A stretch of 64,000 bases of DNA, taken from IMG/VR virus record IMGVR_UViG_3300017987_000056, positions 1 to 64,000 of that record. One strand, given 5' to 3'. The notes beneath the pieces were generated by a model. It saw only the letters and a list, made by a program, of their open reading frames with translations. It was not told the DNA's origin and did no database searches. The stretch comes from a virus. Of this stretch, positions 2,503 through 62,887 are shown in pieces. Made by a program: the position numbers and the translations under genes. Position 1 is the first letter of the stretch, and every line of letters starts with the position of its first letter.

Positions 2503-5500
2503 GTGTCCGATAACTACAGATTCCACCACTACATGGGTGAGTTTGCTGGGGACTCCGCCGTTCTTACCTTTATCCAATCCAACAAGTGGGATACCAACGA
2601 TGACGGAACTGGAGATCCTCGGGCGGGGATGTCCTATTACGATACGGATGCAGATAAGTACAAAACCTACATAGGTTCATCCCCGTCCTGGATCGATATC
2701 ACTAACCACTGGAATCGATCCGGAACCGTCATCAGCCCGCGCACTTCTGGGGATACAATTCAGGCAGGGGACGGGGCGGTAGGTTCCCCGTCCTATTCTT
2801 TCTCCTCGGATCCAGATACGGGGATTTACTACATAGGAGCGGGTAATGTAGGGTTCTCCTCCGGAGGCGGCACGGTGAGTGATTTCGATAGTGATGGAAT
2901 GCACTATCGGGATGACAAGCGTATTTTTTGGGGATCTTCCGACGATGCTTTTATTGGGTGGAACGACGCCAACCAAACAGGCGCTGCGTTGTTCTTATGT
3001 ACTCCTTACAATACTCCTATCGTAATTACCGATACGAATCGATGGAATTTCGATCTTTCACCTGCCAATCCGGGAAGTCCATCCCTTTTAATCCATAGCG
3101 GCAACGAAGACGCTACGCAATGGTTCAGGCTGCGTCATAACGGAACTGATGCCTACGTCGAGTGCGGAGCAGGTACTGGGCGATATCGTTTTACGGGGGC
3201 TACCTTGTACGCAGGGTCTGCTTTTGAAGCTTATCACGGAGCAAACGCTTACGTGAGCACTACCACCACAGGTTTTCAGATCCGAAACAGTAACTCAGCA
3301 GGCCGTGCCGAAATGTTCTTTCAGAACGATACGGGGTGGCCCGGTCAAGGGGGCTTCACTCTTCACGGAACCGCTAGCTCGGGTTCGTGGGGTGCTTGGT
3401 ATGCCAATCGAGTAAATTTGTACACTTTCTCCACTGCCGTGGGGATTGGTCTCGTAGCGGACGGGTCCAGTCAAACCATTTCGATTTCTGCGGGAGGATA
3501 TAATCCGCGACAAATCGTTGTTTACGCTGCTACCAACCATGTAGAAATCGGCTACGGAGGCTCTGCAAGCCACTCCCCCATGCTCTTTGTTCATGGAGTC
3601 GCGGAGCTTGACAACATTCTTTATACGTCCAATGTGATTCTTTCCTCCAATGGAAGTAACAGCGATCCTACTTATTCTTTTACAGACGATACGGATACTG
3701 GAATGTACCGTGTCGGTTCTGATAATTTAGGATTCTCTGTCGGCGGTTCTCTGCTGTTCGATATCAACAGTACGCGAGCACTGAGCGCGGTCGACATTGA
3801 CTTGAACAACGCCAAGAAAGTCATCAATCTGGTAGATCCCGCTCTTGCCCAGGACGCCGCCACGAAAGCGTATGTGGATAGCCAAGTCCAGGGATTGGAG
3901 TGGCAGGATTCAGTTCTCGATAAAGATTTGTCGGCAGAGCCGGGGAGCCCTGCGACAGGTGCTCGATACATCATTGGCGACGGTACCAGCTCTCCTCAAG
4001 ATATCGTCGCGGTGAACCAAGGTTCGAAAACTTTTTCCATTGCAGGAAACTACTCTGCTTCTCTTGCTGCAACGGACATTATCCGGATCAGTCAGTCGAC
4101 CGCCAACGATACTTGGTACACGGTTGTCAGCGCTACCTGGAATGATCCCAATACGGATATCGTTGTCAGCGAATCTATTCCCAGCTCGACCGCTGACGGC
4201 AAGATGCATTGGGCGACCACTGGAGATAGCTGGGCTCAAGATAGCGGATCCGGACCCGGTACAATTGCTGAATATGACGGCTCTTCTTGGGATTACACGA
4301 GGCCGGAAGAGGGGTACGCTCTCTGGGTTGTTGATGAAGACGCTTTGTACGTTTTCAATGGCGTGTTTGTTTGGGCGAAATTCGGATCGACTATAGACCA
4401 CGGAAGCTTGCAAGGTCTTGGCGATGATGACCACACTCAGTATGCTTTGCTCTCGGGACGTTCCGGTGGGCAGACTCTGTACGGGGGTACCGGATCCGGA
4501 GACGACCTGACTCTTTCGTCCACTTCTCATGCGACGGCGGGGACCATTTATCTGAACGGATCTACTATCGAACTCGGAACGAGCGCGATTCTTCAAGTCT
4601 ACGATACTATTCAAAATGCTGCGGGACAGAATCTCGGTATCAACTCGAACGGTACCCTCGACTTAGTTTCGAGTGGTTCCATCTCGGTGAACGGGAGCGG
4701 CGTAGATTTTACCAGTGGTTCGACCGTTACTGCGAATTCCTACTCCATCACAAGTGGGATTGCTTGGGACATCGAGGTTAACCCTTCTTCGGAAGGTGCT
4801 CCCGTCGTCTTGCGACTTACCGCAGGAACCGACACCCGTTGGAACGGTGGTGCGTGCCTGGATCTCGTGTCGGAAGATGCGAGCGCCTATCTACTTCGCG
4901 GGTACTCGAACACGACGTTGACTCTCTACATTGATCGAAATGCGAACATAATCGCGGACGGTTCGTCTCAAGATCTCACTCTTGGCGCTCGTAGCGCAAC
5001 CATTACCTTGAACGAATCTGGGGAGACTAGTCTCGATGGGGGGTTTACCGCATCTTCGATCATTGGAGCGCTGAACGAGCTGAAGGGTGCGATTCCGACC
5101 GTTTACTGGGAGCGCTCTGGAACGATTCTCAGTCCCGATACGGACGGAGATACTCTTCAGGTCGGTGACGGCAGTGCTGCCAATCCTGGGTATGCGTTTG
5201 AAAGTACGGAAGACGCAGGTCTCTGGTGGGACAGCGGCAATTCTAGGGTAACTCTCAGTACCAATACTGCCAGCGAATCTATTTACATTGATTCCGCGCA
5301 TACCGTGAGTATTCATGGAAACAGTATCACCATCCAGTCTCTAGGGGATGCTCTGCAAAGCGGAGATGTTTTCCTCGAAGCACGCGGTAGCGGAACGGTT
5401 GGTGATGAGACTTCTCTATATGTTCGAGCTTACAAAAACGGTAGTAGCGAAGATGCCGTAGTGTACGTCAACGCCGAGACCGCCTTGAATATCGGTACGA

Positions 5501-16237: not shown

Positions 16238-17512
16238 ATGAATAATCCGTACAAAAGGATTTCCAAGAAGCGCCGTCCCGTGCCCACCAAGGCAGCTCGG
16301 CGAGGTGAGCCTACCCGGGGTAAGCGTCCCGCTCCCCGACAGGCTCGGAAAGAAGCTCCGAAGGACGAGCGGCGCAGACTCGCTGCACGTCCGAGGAGTC
16401 GGTTCGGATCGAAGAAGGACGAAACCCTGTTCCAGGGCGACGGTACCTTCAACCCGCAGCGTTACGATCATCCGTCGAGCCGCCACGCGACTCGCGGACG
16501 TTCGGATCGCCGCATGTTTGATTCGAGAGGCGAGGTCAACGCCATCGACCGTCGCGACGCGATGACGCAGGTGCATCAGCTCCTGAACGAGACGGTGAAG
16601 CAGAACGCCAACGCGCTCTCCTTCTACCGTCCGGACACGGAGTCGGGCATCTCGAAGGAAGCGCGTCGGGACATCTTGGCGGCGGCTCTCCAGGATCCCT
16701 CGGGTCAGGGCTTCCACATCGTCGGTCAGGAGCTGGCGCTCCCGATCAAGGCGATTCTCGACTACGAAGGCTTCTCCCGGAAGATCTATCGTGTACGCAA
16801 GCTGGCCCAGGCCGAGCTGTTCCGCGTGCCGCTGGATATCCGTTCGGTCGCCTGGGTGGTTGGCCAAGACGGGCAGACCCCCGAGTCGAGGATCAAGACG
16901 AAGTGGGTCACCCCGCCCGAGTGGAAGGTGACGAGCTTCCCGTCCATCGACATCATGGACATCTATCAGATGAACTTCGATGTCTTGGATCGTGCTCAGG
17001 ACACCGCGCGGCAGGAGATCGAGCTTCAGGAGGACAAGGCCGGTATCGCCATCATCGACGAGGCTGCCCAGACCGAGAATACCGTGACCACGTTCGGTTC
17101 TCTTGGCCTGAACGCTTTCGAGGATGTCCGGTATCAGGTCGAGCGCCATCGTCTGATGGTCGAGAACTTCCTGATCTCTCGTGCCGAGCTGTCCGATGTC
17201 GTGAAGACGATGTCGGCTGCGGTGGATCCGGTCACCGAGCGTGAGCTGATCCTGGCCGGTTACATCGGCAATATCTTGAACGCGCAGATCCTCACCGCAG
17301 CCGGTACCGGTGTCGAGGAAGTGATCCCGGCAGGGACCTTCTACGCGACGACCGGAGCCGAATACATGGGCGAGATGGGCGTCAGGATCGAGCTGTTCTC
17401 CGAGCCGTACAACAAGTACGCGCAGCAGGAGACGGTGAAAGGCTGGGCCTTTGTCGAGATGATCGGATTCGTGATCCCGAACGCGCGTGCGTGCGCCAAG
17501 GGCTCGAAGTAG
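16238..17512 (+). CDS. Major capsid protein (HK97 fold)
   Basis: 424 residues; ATG preceded by GGCGGAGG. Residues 1-75 form a very basic Arg/Lys/Pro arm, probably removed by the protease. The rest has the outline of a large-phage major capsid protein: SIDIMDIYQMNFDVLDRAQD, the long helix ARQEIELQEDKAGIAIID, FLISRAELSDVVKTM, EEVIPAGTFYATTGAEYMG and the late strand ETVKGWAFVEMIGFVIPNAR. Codon use is GC-richer than in the flanking genes, as expected for the most highly expressed gene. It is followed by a chain of hairpins (17531-17646), one of which could act as a partial terminator. Confidence 0.85.
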   Translation: MNNPYKRISKKRRPVPTKAARRGEPTRGKRPAPRQARKEAPKDERRRLAARPRSRFGSKKDETLFQGDGTFNPQRYDHPSSRHATRGRSDRRMFDSRGEVNAIDRRDAMTQVHQLLNETVKQNANALSFYRPDTESGISKEARRDILAAALQDPSGQGFHIVGQELALPIKAILDYEGFSRKIYRVRKLAQAELFRVPLDIRSVAWVVGQDGQTPESRIKTKWVTPPEWKVTSFPSIDIMDIYQMNFDVLDRAQDTARQEIELQEDKAGIAIIDEAAQTENTVTTFGSLGLNAFEDVRYQVERHRLMVENFLISRAELSDVVKTMSAAVDPVTERELILAGYIGNILNAQILTAAGTGVEEVIPAGTFYATTGAEYMGEMGVRIELFSEPYNKYAQQETVKGWAFVEMIGFVIPNARACAKGSK

Positions 17513-17530: not shown

Positions 17531-17646
17531 GCGAAGACGGTAACGCCTTCGTATGGGGACGCTGAGCGTCCCCTTCCCTCCGACTCTTTAACCCCGCGTA
17601 GGCGGGAGATTGAGCGAAAGCTCTGATTCCCAACGAGGATAGTTGG
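17531..17646 (+). ncRNA. Five-hairpin structured leader, HEARO/omega-RNA-like in position
   Basis: Five stems follow each other between the capsid stop and the GTG of the RRXRR gene. A: 17531-17552, GCGAAGACG pairing with CGCCTTCGT (one A.C mismatch, one G.T) around a GTAA loop. B: 17555-17573, GGGGACGC/GCGTCCCC, eight perfect pairs, loop TGA. C: 17593-17606, CCCGC/GCGGG. D: 17612-17623, GAGC/GCTC with a GAAA loop. E: 17630-17646, CCAAC/GTTGG with the ribosome binding site GAGGA in its loop. Two loops are GNRA tetraloops. Known: structured HEARO/omega-RNAs lie directly upstream of iscB genes, whose first domain is the one encoded here. Stem B followed by TTCCCTCC could alternatively slow transcription after the capsid gene. 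Homology to omega-RNA is inferred from context only. Confidence 0.45.
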
Positions 17647-17647
17647 T

Positions 17648-18478
17648 GTGTCGACGAATCGTGTTCCAGTCCTTGGACCTGATGGAACCATTTTGTCGGC
17701 CACCCACCCCGCCAGGGCGCGGAAACTGGTGAACCGGGGTAGGGCGCGAGTCGCGGGACGTCGCCCCTACGCCATACAACTGATCGAAAAGCCAAAGGAG
17801 GCTAATATGCCAAGTGCAGCAGGGGCGATCACGAACTTCACTAAGTACTTTAGGGAAGAGCATGATGTGTATGTCCAGAACAAGTCGAATACGCAGGTTT
17901 CCCTGATGTTCGAGATGGGAATGGGTCGAACCGAATCCGTGTTGATTCCACGAAACCCGGATCCAATCAACCTCACCCAGTTGGTGCCTTTCAGCGCGAT
18001 CAAGGATTCTCCCGATTTTCGGAAGATGATCAATCGCCGTCCTCCGGCGTTGATCTTGCTGGAGGAGGAGGAGTATCTCGCTTACTACGAAAAGAAGGCG
18101 AAGAGCCGAGGTACGGATGCGCAAACCGAGATGGATGAGGCGCACCAAGGACAGGCCGCGATCCAGAACAAGCAGGCGTACACCAACAAGGACGCCGGGC
18201 CTCGCAGGACTATCGAGGAACTGACGGAAGAGCAGGCTGCTGCTCCTCAATCGCCGGACGACATTGTCACTGCTCGGGTGATCGGATTGTGCGCGCAAGT
18301 CGGCGACGATGTGGAGAAGGACAAAAGGATGTCCGCCAATCAGATGCTCGATGAGCTTCGGGCGATGGAGCTGACGAGGGCCGATCTTGAGTATCTGATG
18401 GGGAAAGGCTACTGGAAGACGGTCAAGAAGTTCGCGCAGAAAGAGCTGGAGTCAAAAATCGACGGCGCACCCGAGTAA
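17648..18478 (+). CDS. RRXRR (IscB PLMP) domain fused in frame to a phage structural-operon protein
   Basis: 276 residues from GTG 17648, with GAGGA upstream in a hairpin loop. Residues 5-48 read RVPVLGPDGT, THPARARKLVNRGRARV, AGRRPYAIQLIE: a clear RRXRR (PLMP) domain, the RNA-contacting N-terminal domain of IscB nucleases. RuvC and HNH domains are absent; the match stops where RuvC-I would begin. In frame, residue 54 is a second ATG (17807) with its own strong site AAAGGAGG. Residues 54-276 form a separate protein (NFTKYFREEHDVYVQNKSN, INRRPPALILLEEEEYLAYYE, acidic/helical C-terminus MLDELRAMELTRADLEYLMG) of the kind found after capsid genes in large phages. So two products are likely: the 276-residue fusion and a 223-residue form. 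With no nuclease domain, a binding or regulatory role is more likely than cleavage. Confidence 0.75.
   Translation: MSTNRVPVLGPDGTILSATHPARARKLVNRGRARVAGRRPYAIQLIEKPKEANMPSAAGAITNFTKYFREEHDVYVQNKSNTQVSLMFEMGMGRTESVLIPRNPDPINLTQLVPFSAIKDSPDFRKMINRRPPALILLEEEEYLAYYEKKAKSRGTDAQTEMDEAHQGQAAIQNKQAYTNKDAGPRRTIEELTEEQAAAPQSPDDIVTARVIGLCAQVGDDVEKDKRMSANQMLDELRAMELTRADLEYLMGKGYWKTVKKFAQKELESKIDGAPE
17794..17801 (+). promoter_or_regulatory. Internal ribosome binding site for the short form starting at 17807
   Basis: AAAGGAGG ends five bases before the in-frame ATG at 17807. It is much stronger than the site in front of GTG 17648, so the form without the RRXRR domain is probably the major product. Confidence 0.65.
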
Positions 18479-18560: not shown

Positions 18561-19004
18561 ATGGGAGCTTTCCAAGAAACTGTCCGTACCGTAACTCTTG
18601 CAGCAGGTGCTGCTACTCGTATCTGGGCAGCTCCTTTGAGTGAGCCTTTTAAAGATATGACTATTTGGCTTCTCAATGGAGGAGTCCCGACTGCTGCGGG
18701 GAACCTCGATTGGGAGGTTTTCTACGGTGGCGGCTGGACCGGGGAGCCTTTCAAATCGGGCTCTACTCACTTGAAGGGCAAATCTCAGGCAAGCGGTGCT
18801 ATCGCAGGCGGTACAGAGCTGTGCGACATGGTTTGGGAAGACGGAACACTTCTTCCTCCGAACCAGAACATACCAGCGGGAAGATCGGTCTCAGACAGTG
18901 CCTTGCAGGGCTTTCCGGTCGTCTTGTACCTGAAGAATAACAAGGCCGTACCGCTGACGTTGAATGCGGTTTTTGTGTGCCGTACCGTGGGCGATCACGT
19001 ATAG
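18561..19004 (+). CDS. Small structural-operon protein, first of a tandem pair
   Basis: 147 residues, beta-rich: MGAFQETVRTVTLAAGAATR, MTIWLLNGG, DWEVFYGGGWTGEPFKSGSTH, ending VFVCRTVGDHV. It is clearly paralogous to the next gene (both start MGAF and end TVGDHV, and share LDWEV-x-YGGGWTGEPFK, GSTH, AGG-x-ELCD, WED-x-TLLP and GRSV-x-DSAL-x-GFP). Neither matches a family I know. Their position just after the capsid region suggests virion decoration or neck components. Preceded by the inverted repeat at 18513. Confidence 0.55.
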   Translation: MGAFQETVRTVTLAAGAATRIWAAPLSEPFKDMTIWLLNGGVPTAAGNLDWEVFYGGGWTGEPFKSGSTHLKGKSQASGAIAGGTELCDMVWEDGTLLPPNQNIPAGRSVSDSALQGFPVVLYLKNNKAVPLTLNAVFVCRTVGDHV

Positions 19005-19013
19005 GAGCGAGGA

Positions 19014-19469
19014 ATGGGAGCTTTCAGGGTAACAGTACGGGAATTCGAGCTGACGGCATCCGGAGGCGCTCAGGATACGATTCGTCTTTGGGACGCCCCG
19101 GTGAGCGAGCCCATTCGCAACATGACGATTTGGGTTTTGAGCGGGGGTTTGGTTACCGCTGCGCTTGATCTCGATTGGGAGGTTTTGTACGGCGGTGGCT
19201 GGACTGGGGAACCTTTCAAGGAAGGTTCTACTCATGTTCGAGGAAAATCTCAAGGAAGCGGCAGCATCGCAGGGGGCGCGGAACTCTGCGATGTGATTTG
19301 GGAAGACGCTACGCTGCTTCCAGGCAACAAGAACATCCCTTTTGGGAGATCGGTTCAGGACAGCGCGCTCAAGGGATTTCCCATTGTAGTGGAGCTGACA
19401 AACCAAAAAGCTTCGCCCGTTTCGGGCAGAGTAGTCTTCGTGTCCCGCACTGTCGGTGATCACGTATAG
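19014..19469 (+). CDS. Small structural-operon protein, second of a tandem pair
   Basis: 151 residues, ten bases after its paralogue, with GGAGCGAGGA as ribosome binding site. The two copies share roughly half of their residues over the full length; divergence is spread evenly, so the duplication is not recent. The conserved core is DLDWEVLYGGGWTGEPFK, CDVIWEDATLLP and FGRSVQDSALKGFPIVVEL. Function unknown; two copies might form hetero-oligomers or serve two sites on the particle. Confidence 0.55.
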   Translation: MGAFRVTVREFELTASGGAQDTIRLWDAPVSEPIRNMTIWVLSGGLVTAALDLDWEVLYGGGWTGEPFKEGSTHVRGKSQGSGSIAGGAELCDVIWEDATLLPGNKNIPFGRSVQDSALKGFPIVVELTNQKASPVSGRVVFVSRTVGDHV

Positions 19470-61312: not shown

Positions 61313-62887
61313 ATGCCGTGTGTTCTACTGGTAGACGGAAACCCTCTTGTCTGGCGAGCGGCCTATGCCGAACGCAAGAGTAGCCAGGAATCCCGTATCG
61401 CCGGGGAGGTGGTGCGTTACTTCTACGAGATCCTGGAGCGTTTCCGTCCTCAAGAGGTTGTCATCTGCTGGGACAGGGGAAAGTCCCGCTGGCGTTCGCT
61501 GATCTACCCCGACTACAAGGCCGACCGACTGGAGAAGAAGCGCGAGGATGTCGACTTGGCGCTCGTGAAAGAGCAGATGGGCTACGTCCGCCGTTACTTC
61601 AACGCCGTAGGGGTTCGCCAGATCACTATTCCGGGTGTCGAGGCCGATGACGTGCTCGGGTGGCTTTCCGAGTACTACTCACTCCTGTACAACAGGCAAA
61701 ATCCTCGGATAGTGATTGCGACCGGCGACCGCGACCTGTGGCAGCTCGTCAGCTCCCGGGTCCTGGTTTACGATCATCTACATTCCACCTTGTTCAACGA
61801 GCAGGGCGTCGAGAGCGCCTTTGGCGTGGAGCCCGAGCGCGTAGCCGATCTCAAGTCGTTGATGGGTGACGCTTCGGACAACATCCCTGGAGTCAAGGGA
61901 ATTGGGGCGAAGACCGGTGCAAAGCTCTTGGCGCAGTACGAGCACCTCGGTACCTTGTGCTTCCCTGACAAGGATCAAATCAAAGAGCTGTCGAAACGCA
62001 AGACCACGGCTCGGATCCTGGAAAGTGGTGAACTTATCGCCGAGACCTATCGGCTTGTGAAAATCCCCTCCCTGCGGGAGGCGATTTATTACCTTTCCCC
62101 TGCCGAGATGCTCATTTTCAAGGAAGAGGTCGAGAAGCCGCTCGCTCGGGAAGATTTCCGGGTGCGGATGATGTACGAGCGGTTCGGCAAATCCTACGCT
62201 GAGCAAGAGAGGCTGCTCCCTACGTCCTCCGCCGACCTGAAGGGTATGGTGAACTACATGGAGAACTGCGCGCCGTCTGAGAGGCCCTCCTGGGGCTCTC
62301 TGCTGGAAGTCGATAATGCAATGCTGGAGTGTGCCCAATGCGAGCTGAGGTCGCATTGTGCCGAATTCGGCCCCACGCTTCCCTCGGGGCACGAAAACTG
62401 CGAGATCATGATCGTCGGTCGGAACCCGGGTGAGCAGGAGTTGATAAATCGGAAACCGTTTTTTCCGGGGGCTCCTGCGGGGAGTCGTCTCGAAAAGTTC
62501 TTGGCGAACGTCGGGCTCATTCGCGACGAGTGCTGGGTCACGAACACTTGCAAATGCTACTCACAGGACAACCGACCGCCGACTTTCGGAGAGATCAAGG
62601 CGTGCTCCAGGTACTTACGAGCCGAAATCGATCTTTTGCGCCCCAAGTTTATTATTGCGTTCGGGAACGAGGCTATGATGCAGCTTACGCCGTATCGAAG
62701 CCGTGTGCGCAAGCACTGCGGGGAAATACTGGAGAGCCCGACTGGTATGATCGGGCAAATCGAGGCGAAAGTGGCGGTTTGCGTTCATCCGTCTTCAACG
62801 TTTCGCAATCAGCAGGACGAGAAGAATATGCAGTATGCCGAAAAAATGGTGAAAAACCTCTTGGACAAGGTGACGGAAGATGCCTAA
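61313..62887 (+). CDS. Fusion of 5'-3' exonuclease (FEN) and family-4-like uracil-DNA glycosylase
   Basis: 524 residues. Residues 1-295 are a FEN/5'-3' exonuclease of the T5 and Pol I type: LVDGNPLVWRA, VICWDRGKSRWRSLIYPDYK, GVEADDVLGWL, ATGDRDLWQL, LMGDASDNIPGVKGIGAKTG (metal acidic residues and helix-hairpin-helix). Residues 325-524 resemble a family 4 uracil-DNA glycosylase: CAQC (about 340-343), VGRNPGEQE (motif A, normally GE-x-PG), RKPFFPGAPAGSRLEKFL, CWVTNTCKCYSQDNRPPT ... KAC (the two further cluster cysteines about 16 apart), VCVHPSS. The four cysteines imply an intact 4Fe-4S cluster. Role: primer removal plus uracil excision in phage DNA. Motif A is altered. Confidence 0.8.
   Translation: MPCVLLVDGNPLVWRAAYAERKSSQESRIAGEVVRYFYEILERFRPQEVVICWDRGKSRWRSLIYPDYKADRLEKKREDVDLALVKEQMGYVRRYFNAVGVRQITIPGVEADDVLGWLSEYYSLLYNRQNPRIVIATGDRDLWQLVSSRVLVYDHLHSTLFNEQGVESAFGVEPERVADLKSLMGDASDNIPGVKGIGAKTGAKLLAQYEHLGTLCFPDKDQIKELSKRKTTARILESGELIAETYRLVKIPSLREAIYYLSPAEMLIFKEEVEKPLAREDFRVRMMYERFGKSYAEQERLLPTSSADLKGMVNYMENCAPSERPSWGSLLEVDNAMLECAQCELRSHCAEFGPTLPSGHENCEIMIVGRNPGEQELINRKPFFPGAPAGSRLEKFLANVGLIRDECWVTNTCKCYSQDNRPPTFGEIKACSRYLRAEIDLLRPKFIIAFGNEAMMQLTPYRSRVRKHCGEILESPTGMIGQIEAKVAVCVHPSSTFRNQQDEKNMQYAEKMVKNLLDKVTEDA

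Follow-up and report, generated by a model that had tools for sequence, protein, structure and literature searches.

A nuclease-free IscB-type domain begins a conserved phage gene behind the capsid gene and is preceded by an omegaRNA-like leader hairpin

What does the RNA-contacting domain of an RNA-guided nuclease do at the start of a phage gene that encodes no nuclease? The question is raised by an open reading frame (ORF) at 17648-18478 (+) in the first 64,000 nucleotides of the IMG/VR virus record IMGVR_UViG_3300017987_000056; this whole stretch is called the window here. The ORF starts with GTG and encodes 276 amino acids; its coordinates and frame were confirmed. An initial annotation, made from the sequence alone, had proposed that residues 5-48 are the RRXRR (PLMP) domain of IscB, IsrB and IshB and that they continue in frame into a structural protein of the capsid region. 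We report a conserved reuse of the IscB PLMP domain in uncultured phages which is apparently undescribed so far. A leader RNA and an internal start, both absent from the initial annotation, turn the plain fusion into a nested gene with an RNA element. We are highly confident of this anatomy, i.e. the domain, its conserved fusion, the selection acting on it, a structured leader, the resemblance of a leader hairpin to the end of omegaRNA, and the internal start.

The PLMP domain and its fusion to a phage protein

A Pfam scan of the ORF returned a single domain, PF14239 (RRXRR), at residues 6-53 with 33.6 bits and E 4.5e-8, above the curated cut-off of 25 bits. The annotated domain was thus borne out; it is encoded within 17648..17806 (+), residues 1-53. 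The match spans profile positions 1-48 of 174, RuvC or HNH Pfam domains were not found in the fusion protein, and domain and body share a single frame, as had been claimed. A PF14239 match alone is no evidence of a nuclease. Among 23 aligned relatives a RuvX match was present in two and was weak (best E 0.0084). The ORF is the sole place with a PF14239 match in all 127,888 bases of the virus record. When PDB sequences were compared with a profile of 11 phage PLMP copies, TbaIscB (9k30) gave E 9.7e-12; for OgeuIscB and other IscBs the value was about 1e-5.

The fold leads to the same proteins. An AlphaFold model of the fusion protein, computed from the 23 aligned sequences with the row of phage Rctr197k left out, had a mean predicted local distance difference test score (pLDDT) of 84. 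Residues 6-45 were modelled as beta-beta-alpha-beta-beta (pLDDT about 80-90), followed by a floppy linker at 53-58 and then a separate body. A PDB fold search with this model placed IscB/IsrB-omegaRNA complexes in all of the top nine positions, which upheld the predicted structural likeness to IscB. The E-values were modest (0.001-0.03 for IscB/IsrB); sequence and fold evidence agree. The PLMP tetrapeptide itself is absent, being ILSA in the window and LSY in most relatives; it is also variable among many of the IscBs compared (PLNP, PLSP, PLDP). Despite its loss the phage domains have retained the HPARAR helix motif and the G-A-V-PF strands. We conclude that residues 6-53 are a genuine IscB-type PLMP domain. 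Two PLMP-like folds, A7KV46 and F5B475, could not be traced to a record in the collections searched.

Is the fusion peculiar to the window? An IMG/VR scan with the window protein as single query returned no relatives; they were gathered from IMG/VR with profiles of the capsid protein, the PLMP and the body. In nearly every lineage with a complete gene the PLMP stands at the start and runs in frame into the body, and PF14239 matches 22 of the 23 aligned family proteins. The same fusion, which the initial annotation had suggested seeking in related phages, is thus not confined to the window. Whole-protein identity to the window falls to about 30% among PLMP-carrying relatives, and Rctr197k has a divergent copy. 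In nearly all lineages the gene sits after the capsid gene.

In computable pairs (many were saturated at synonymous sites) the ratio of nonsynonymous to synonymous substitution rates (dN/dS) of the PLMP was mostly 0.1-0.5, similar to that of the body. The PLMP is under purifying selection. Distances among PLMPs agree with those among bodies (Mantel r 0.87, p 1e-4), and the mean identity is 0.41 in either part. In a tree all 21 phage PLMPs lie on one side of a branch (97/95) that separates them from 38 IscB PLMPs; the alignment is short and limits the resolution of deeper branching. Congruence and separation by one branch therefore point to a single old fusion event, seemingly followed by vertical descent. 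One related contig, QMZE01000009.1, was binned as an Archaeoglobales metagenome-assembled genome. In its length and its PLMP sequence it equals a virus contig (L013), and it is probably a virus contig within the Archaeoglobales bin.

Leader hairpins and the end of omegaRNA

In most lineages the capsid stop codon and the PLMP start are separated by about 115-160 nt; the distance is greater in lineages L069-L073. The leader of the window folds better than 200 of 200 shuffles (z -4.24). It contains tandem hairpins B and C at 17587..17626 (+), which are delineated by the leader fold, covariation and matches to two RNA models. Hairpin B (+) has the flank UUUAAC, a stem of 17593-17597 with 17602-17606, and then AGA. 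Hairpin C, GAGC-GAAA-GCUC, is at 17612..17623 (+), and all four of its pairs vary on both sides across lineages. A model of both hairpins built from eight phage leaders (R1) matched the window at E 2.1e-6 and others down to lineage L042 at E 0.19. In an alignment fitted to R1, 99.1% of the cells pair, and two-sided changes occur in six of nine pairs; fitting to the structure biases these counts upward, and the slid controls are clear. The covariation was reached by none of 500 shuffles, and every slid control had none. The leader thus carries conserved, covarying hairpins at the gene's own start. No Rfam family exceeded its threshold in the window or the leaders.

Two peculiarities of individual leaders may be mentioned here. 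L069, L070, L072 and L073 contain a much larger stacked RNA of several hairpins (predicted -71 to -96 kcal/mol), which lies about 190 nt ahead of the start of the PLMP (at 3815, or 3809 in L073); this leader may keep more of an omegaRNA-like architecture. In L016 and L017 the 3' strand of hairpin C together with UGGC forms the complement of GCCAGGGC, which lies in the HPARAR codons, and between the two there is a matched change on both sides. Such pairing exceeds a synonymous null in sum, is absent in the window and is phylogenetically confounded; a long-range pairing of hairpin C with PLMP codons in L016 and L017 is possible.

Do the leader hairpins have a counterpart in IscB loci? In the IsrB structure the PLMP touches the tandem hairpins SL7/SL8 near the 3' end of omegaRNA as well as a Shine-Dalgarno sequence (SD) in SL7, and the authors suggested that the PLMP-SD contact could contribute to the regulation of IsrB expression (PMC9581776). 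In OgeuIscB the PLMP recognises terminal hairpins 1 and 2, and the tetrapeptide contacts RuvC as well as omegaRNA (PMC9640706). Each of the eight IscB genes tested had the Rfam family HEARO (RF02033) upstream, with its end at UUAC directly ahead of a terminal hairpin. Virus-borne IscB loci often continue from the HEARO end to the IscB start with UUUAC or AUUAC, followed by a tetraloop on a 4-bp stem and by AGG or AGA; a strict descriptor of this terminal hairpin applied to 28 of 79 such loci, and in 17 chosen IscB hairpins four of four stem pairs change on both sides. Phage hairpin B follows the same pattern: after UUUAAC comes a 5-bp stem whose tetraloops are mostly GNRA or UNCG, and then AGGU.

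A hairpin model derived from IscB loci only (R2) was then run on both strands of 316 kb of phage loci. The top four hits, and six of 13 in total, were in capsid-PLMP leaders on the right strand, although leaders made up about 0.6% of the sequence searched; they include the distant lineages L072 and L002. Since a single clade contributes four of the six, the number of independent hits is closer to three. R2 also matched the window, at 17587-17611 (E 0.0098, 301 nt searched). A simple hairpin descriptor, written after both the phage and the IscB sets had been seen, applied to 14 of 23 leaders against 0.16 expected. RF02033 itself was not found in phage leaders; the phage records gave one chance match, outside the leaders. 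The resemblance of hairpin B to the omegaRNA terminal hairpin is thus well supported. It probably reflects homology, for this one hairpin. The phage looks to have kept both partners of the PLMP/terminal-hairpin contact, and RNA binding by the phage PLMP would follow from its homology with IscB and IsrB.

Several observations speak against this reading. Hairpin B is only about 25 nt long and convergence is possible. A reverse search of IscB loci with R1 gave no leader-like match. Hairpin B is unclear in lineage L076, and in L019 other genes occupying about 1.7 kb stand between a hairpin-B-like sequence and the PLMP gene, so that the two are not neighbours in cis in every lineage. The contacts of the IscB PLMP with the terminal hairpins are mostly sequence-independent (PMC9640706). 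Finally, the body of L074, the one family protein not matched by PF14239, lacks the PLMP, has its own ATG and is placed after two other genes; distant jumbo phages also lack the domain on the body. The initial annotation had named relatives of this kind, together with a decayed insertion in the window, as a refutation. Such relatives exist, but there is no decayed insertion, and in the clade of the window the domain is intact and under purifying selection. As to the genes inserted between the capsid and body genes, those in L074 (2830-3983) include a deaminase-like ORF which precedes the body, and those in L019 (9260-10940) left the PLMP in place.

A nested start and possible autoregulation

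Within the linker codons lies an SD, AAGGAGG, at 17795..17801 (+), and it precedes an in-frame ATG at 17807 at the first residue of the body. An SD match of at least 5 nt preceded 17 of 20 body starts versus 12 of 282 other in-frame internal ATGs from the same ORFs and the capsid ORFs (Fisher 2e-17; the lineages are not independent). These ATGs served as control as synonymous shuffling is unsuitable here: the linker peptide itself encodes SD-like codons. In lineages with different linker peptides the SD is encoded in different reading frames. At the upstream start, that of the PLMP, the SD is weak: a match of at least 5 nt was present in four of 21. A strong conserved SD and ATG at the body together with the weak SD of the PLMP start make it likely, therefore, that two products are formed, PLMP-body and body alone. 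The true body start is probably 17807.

How might these elements work together? A phage ancestor would have acquired the 5' part of an OMEGA gene of the IscB/IsrB type, i.e. the PLMP together with the terminal hairpin or hairpins of omegaRNA with which it makes contact. The guide, the omegaRNA core and the RuvC and HNH domains would have disappeared, and the PLMP been joined in frame to the gene after the major capsid gene. From the nested starts the long form (weak start 17648) and the body-only form (strong SD/ATG 17807) would be made. The PLMP of the long form may bind hairpins B and C of its own mRNA leader, as the PLMP of IscB/IsrB does with SD-containing terminal hairpins, and binding would alter how readily ribosomes reach the 17648 start and perhaps also, if the two are coupled, the 17807 start. 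In this way the protein would set its own dose, or the ratio of long to short form, in late gene expression. For this mechanism as a whole, in which a fragment of an OMEGA system was exapted to regulate its own translation, we see an even chance; the capture route, the RNA binding, the regulation and its direction are what we infer. Somewhat short of even is the case for the more specific claim of a guide-less and nuclease-less OMEGA derivative in which only the PLMP/terminal-hairpin interface was domesticated, as a cis-acting switch in the mRNA leader of a late gene.

Other explanations have to be weighed against autoregulation. In one, the PLMP acts during head assembly or within the virion, as an adaptor that binds RNA or protein; it might, for example, bind a phage transcript or dock the body onto another head protein. 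The leader hairpins would then not be its ligand and would do no more than tune translation. The position of the gene behind the capsid gene fits, as does the contact of the IsrB PLMP with protein (RuvC, TI; PMC9581776). Yet the likeness of the leader hairpin to the omegaRNA terminal hairpin would be left unexplained, PaBG-type homologues of the body are located away from head genes, and the PaBG virion paper does not name gp154 in its main text. We regard the adaptor as rather unlikely. The initial annotation had offered an RNA adaptor in virion assembly or in gene control: gene control is favoured because the leader holds an element like the omegaRNA terminal hairpin, and virion assembly lacks support because no role is assigned to the body. 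It is improbable that the PLMP biases host or phage translation in trans as a ribosome factor similar to the N-domain of initiation factor 3 (IF3). IF3 chains, including isolated N-domains, do rank next after IscB in the fold search, and a similarity of PLMP and IF3 is published (PMC9581776); however, these matches are weak (E 0.4-0.9), all closer ones are IscB/IsrB, and conserved cis hairpins favour a local target.

To the same low degree we credit a PLMP that persists solely as an extension which helps the body to fold or to make protein contacts, behind hairpins that are ordinary initiation structures and resemble omegaRNA by convergence. The shortness of hairpin B, the negative reverse search and the frequency of SD-bearing hairpins in general agree with this, but not the enrichment of the IscB-only model and of the descriptor in the leaders, nor the fact that the 5' flank UUUAAC and the 3' AGG match in addition to the stem. 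A decoy, with the phage PLMP or hairpin in competition against the IscB/IsrB ribonucleoproteins of rival elements, could account for the retention of both partners in a gene devoid of nuclease. A fixed place beside the capsid gene and vertical descent are unlike an interference gene, however, and phage and IscB PLMPs are well separated in the tree; the decoy appears very improbable. A chance read-through or decayed insertion before an ordinary phage gene might be suspected from the GTG start with its weak SD and the probable body start at 17807. It was rejected with near certainty: in all carrier lineages, down to the 30% identity given above, the reading frame stays open, the domain is intact and dN/dS is low.

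With the OMEGA proteins IscB, IsrB and IshB and their omegaRNA (HEARO, RF02033) the phage gene shares the PLMP by sequence and fold and, shortly before the PLMP start codon, an RNA that resembles the terminal hairpin. It differs in having no RuvC, HNH, HEARO core or guide; moreover, its tetrapeptide is replaced, and it is fused to a phage protein and inherited vertically beside the capsid gene. The phage-borne TldR proteins, nuclease-inactive TnpB derivatives, are also OMEGA components exapted by phages for gene control; TldR is described as an RNA-guided transcription factor (PMC13418256), whereas the phage PLMP protein has neither guide nor DNA-binding domain and its proposed target is its own mRNA leader. 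In the literature on RRXRR, PLMP and IscB, with subscription journals partly covered, we found no report of a fusion of PLMP to a phage head-operon protein or of a nuclease-free PLMP. Autogenous translational regulators, such as ribosomal proteins and phage RNA-binding proteins, bind a structured leader at their own start site. The logic proposed here is alike; the difference is that domain and RNA would derive from an RNA-guided nuclease system and that the regulation is a prediction. If correct, an ancestor of Cas9 has been dismantled and its RNA-contacting head reused with the piece of RNA it touched, with no guide and no nuclease, and the ancestral role of the PLMP may include autoregulation of IscB/IsrB translation. 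The idea of regulation put forward with the IsrB structure (PMC9581776) would thereby become testable in a minimal pair of about 55 residues and 40 nt.

Gene neighbourhood and the body protein

Directly upstream of the fusion gene, at 16238..17512 (+), is the gene of the major capsid protein (phrog_2522, major head protein, E 6.3e-57), which is itself preceded by portal and head protease genes. A hairpin predicted at 17555..17573 (+) follows the capsid gene, and its stem is seen at the same place in relatives; it is likely the 3' end or a processing element of the capsid mRNA.

The body ORF from the internal ATG, 17807..18478 (+), encodes 223 amino acids (residues 54-276). A profile search, another check suggested at the outset, identified it as phrog_17686, a family of unknown function (residues 69-266, E 9.8e-8), which was also matched in 22 of the 23 relatives. 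Compared with PDB folds the body had no match; its BFVD matches are mainly uncharacterised jumbo-phage proteins. Members of the same family occur in PaBG, Yoloswag and Sen-NF near primase genes, a different genomic place away from the capsid gene. They are annotated at about 211-224 residues and therefore have no room for a PLMP. Since phrog_17686 has no assigned function and these homologues lie apart from head genes, to call the body a structural protein is premature. Of the annotated structural gene in the capsid region, the region stands and the structural role is putative.

Downstream of the PLMP gene are two tandem paralogous genes, 18561-19004 and 19014-19469 (+), of unknown function and with no PHROG match; relatives of them follow the PLMP gene in many related phages. 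Elsewhere in the window a single ORF at 61313-62887 (+) combines a 5'-3' exonuclease (PF02739, PF01367) with a uracil-DNA glycosylase domain (PF03167).
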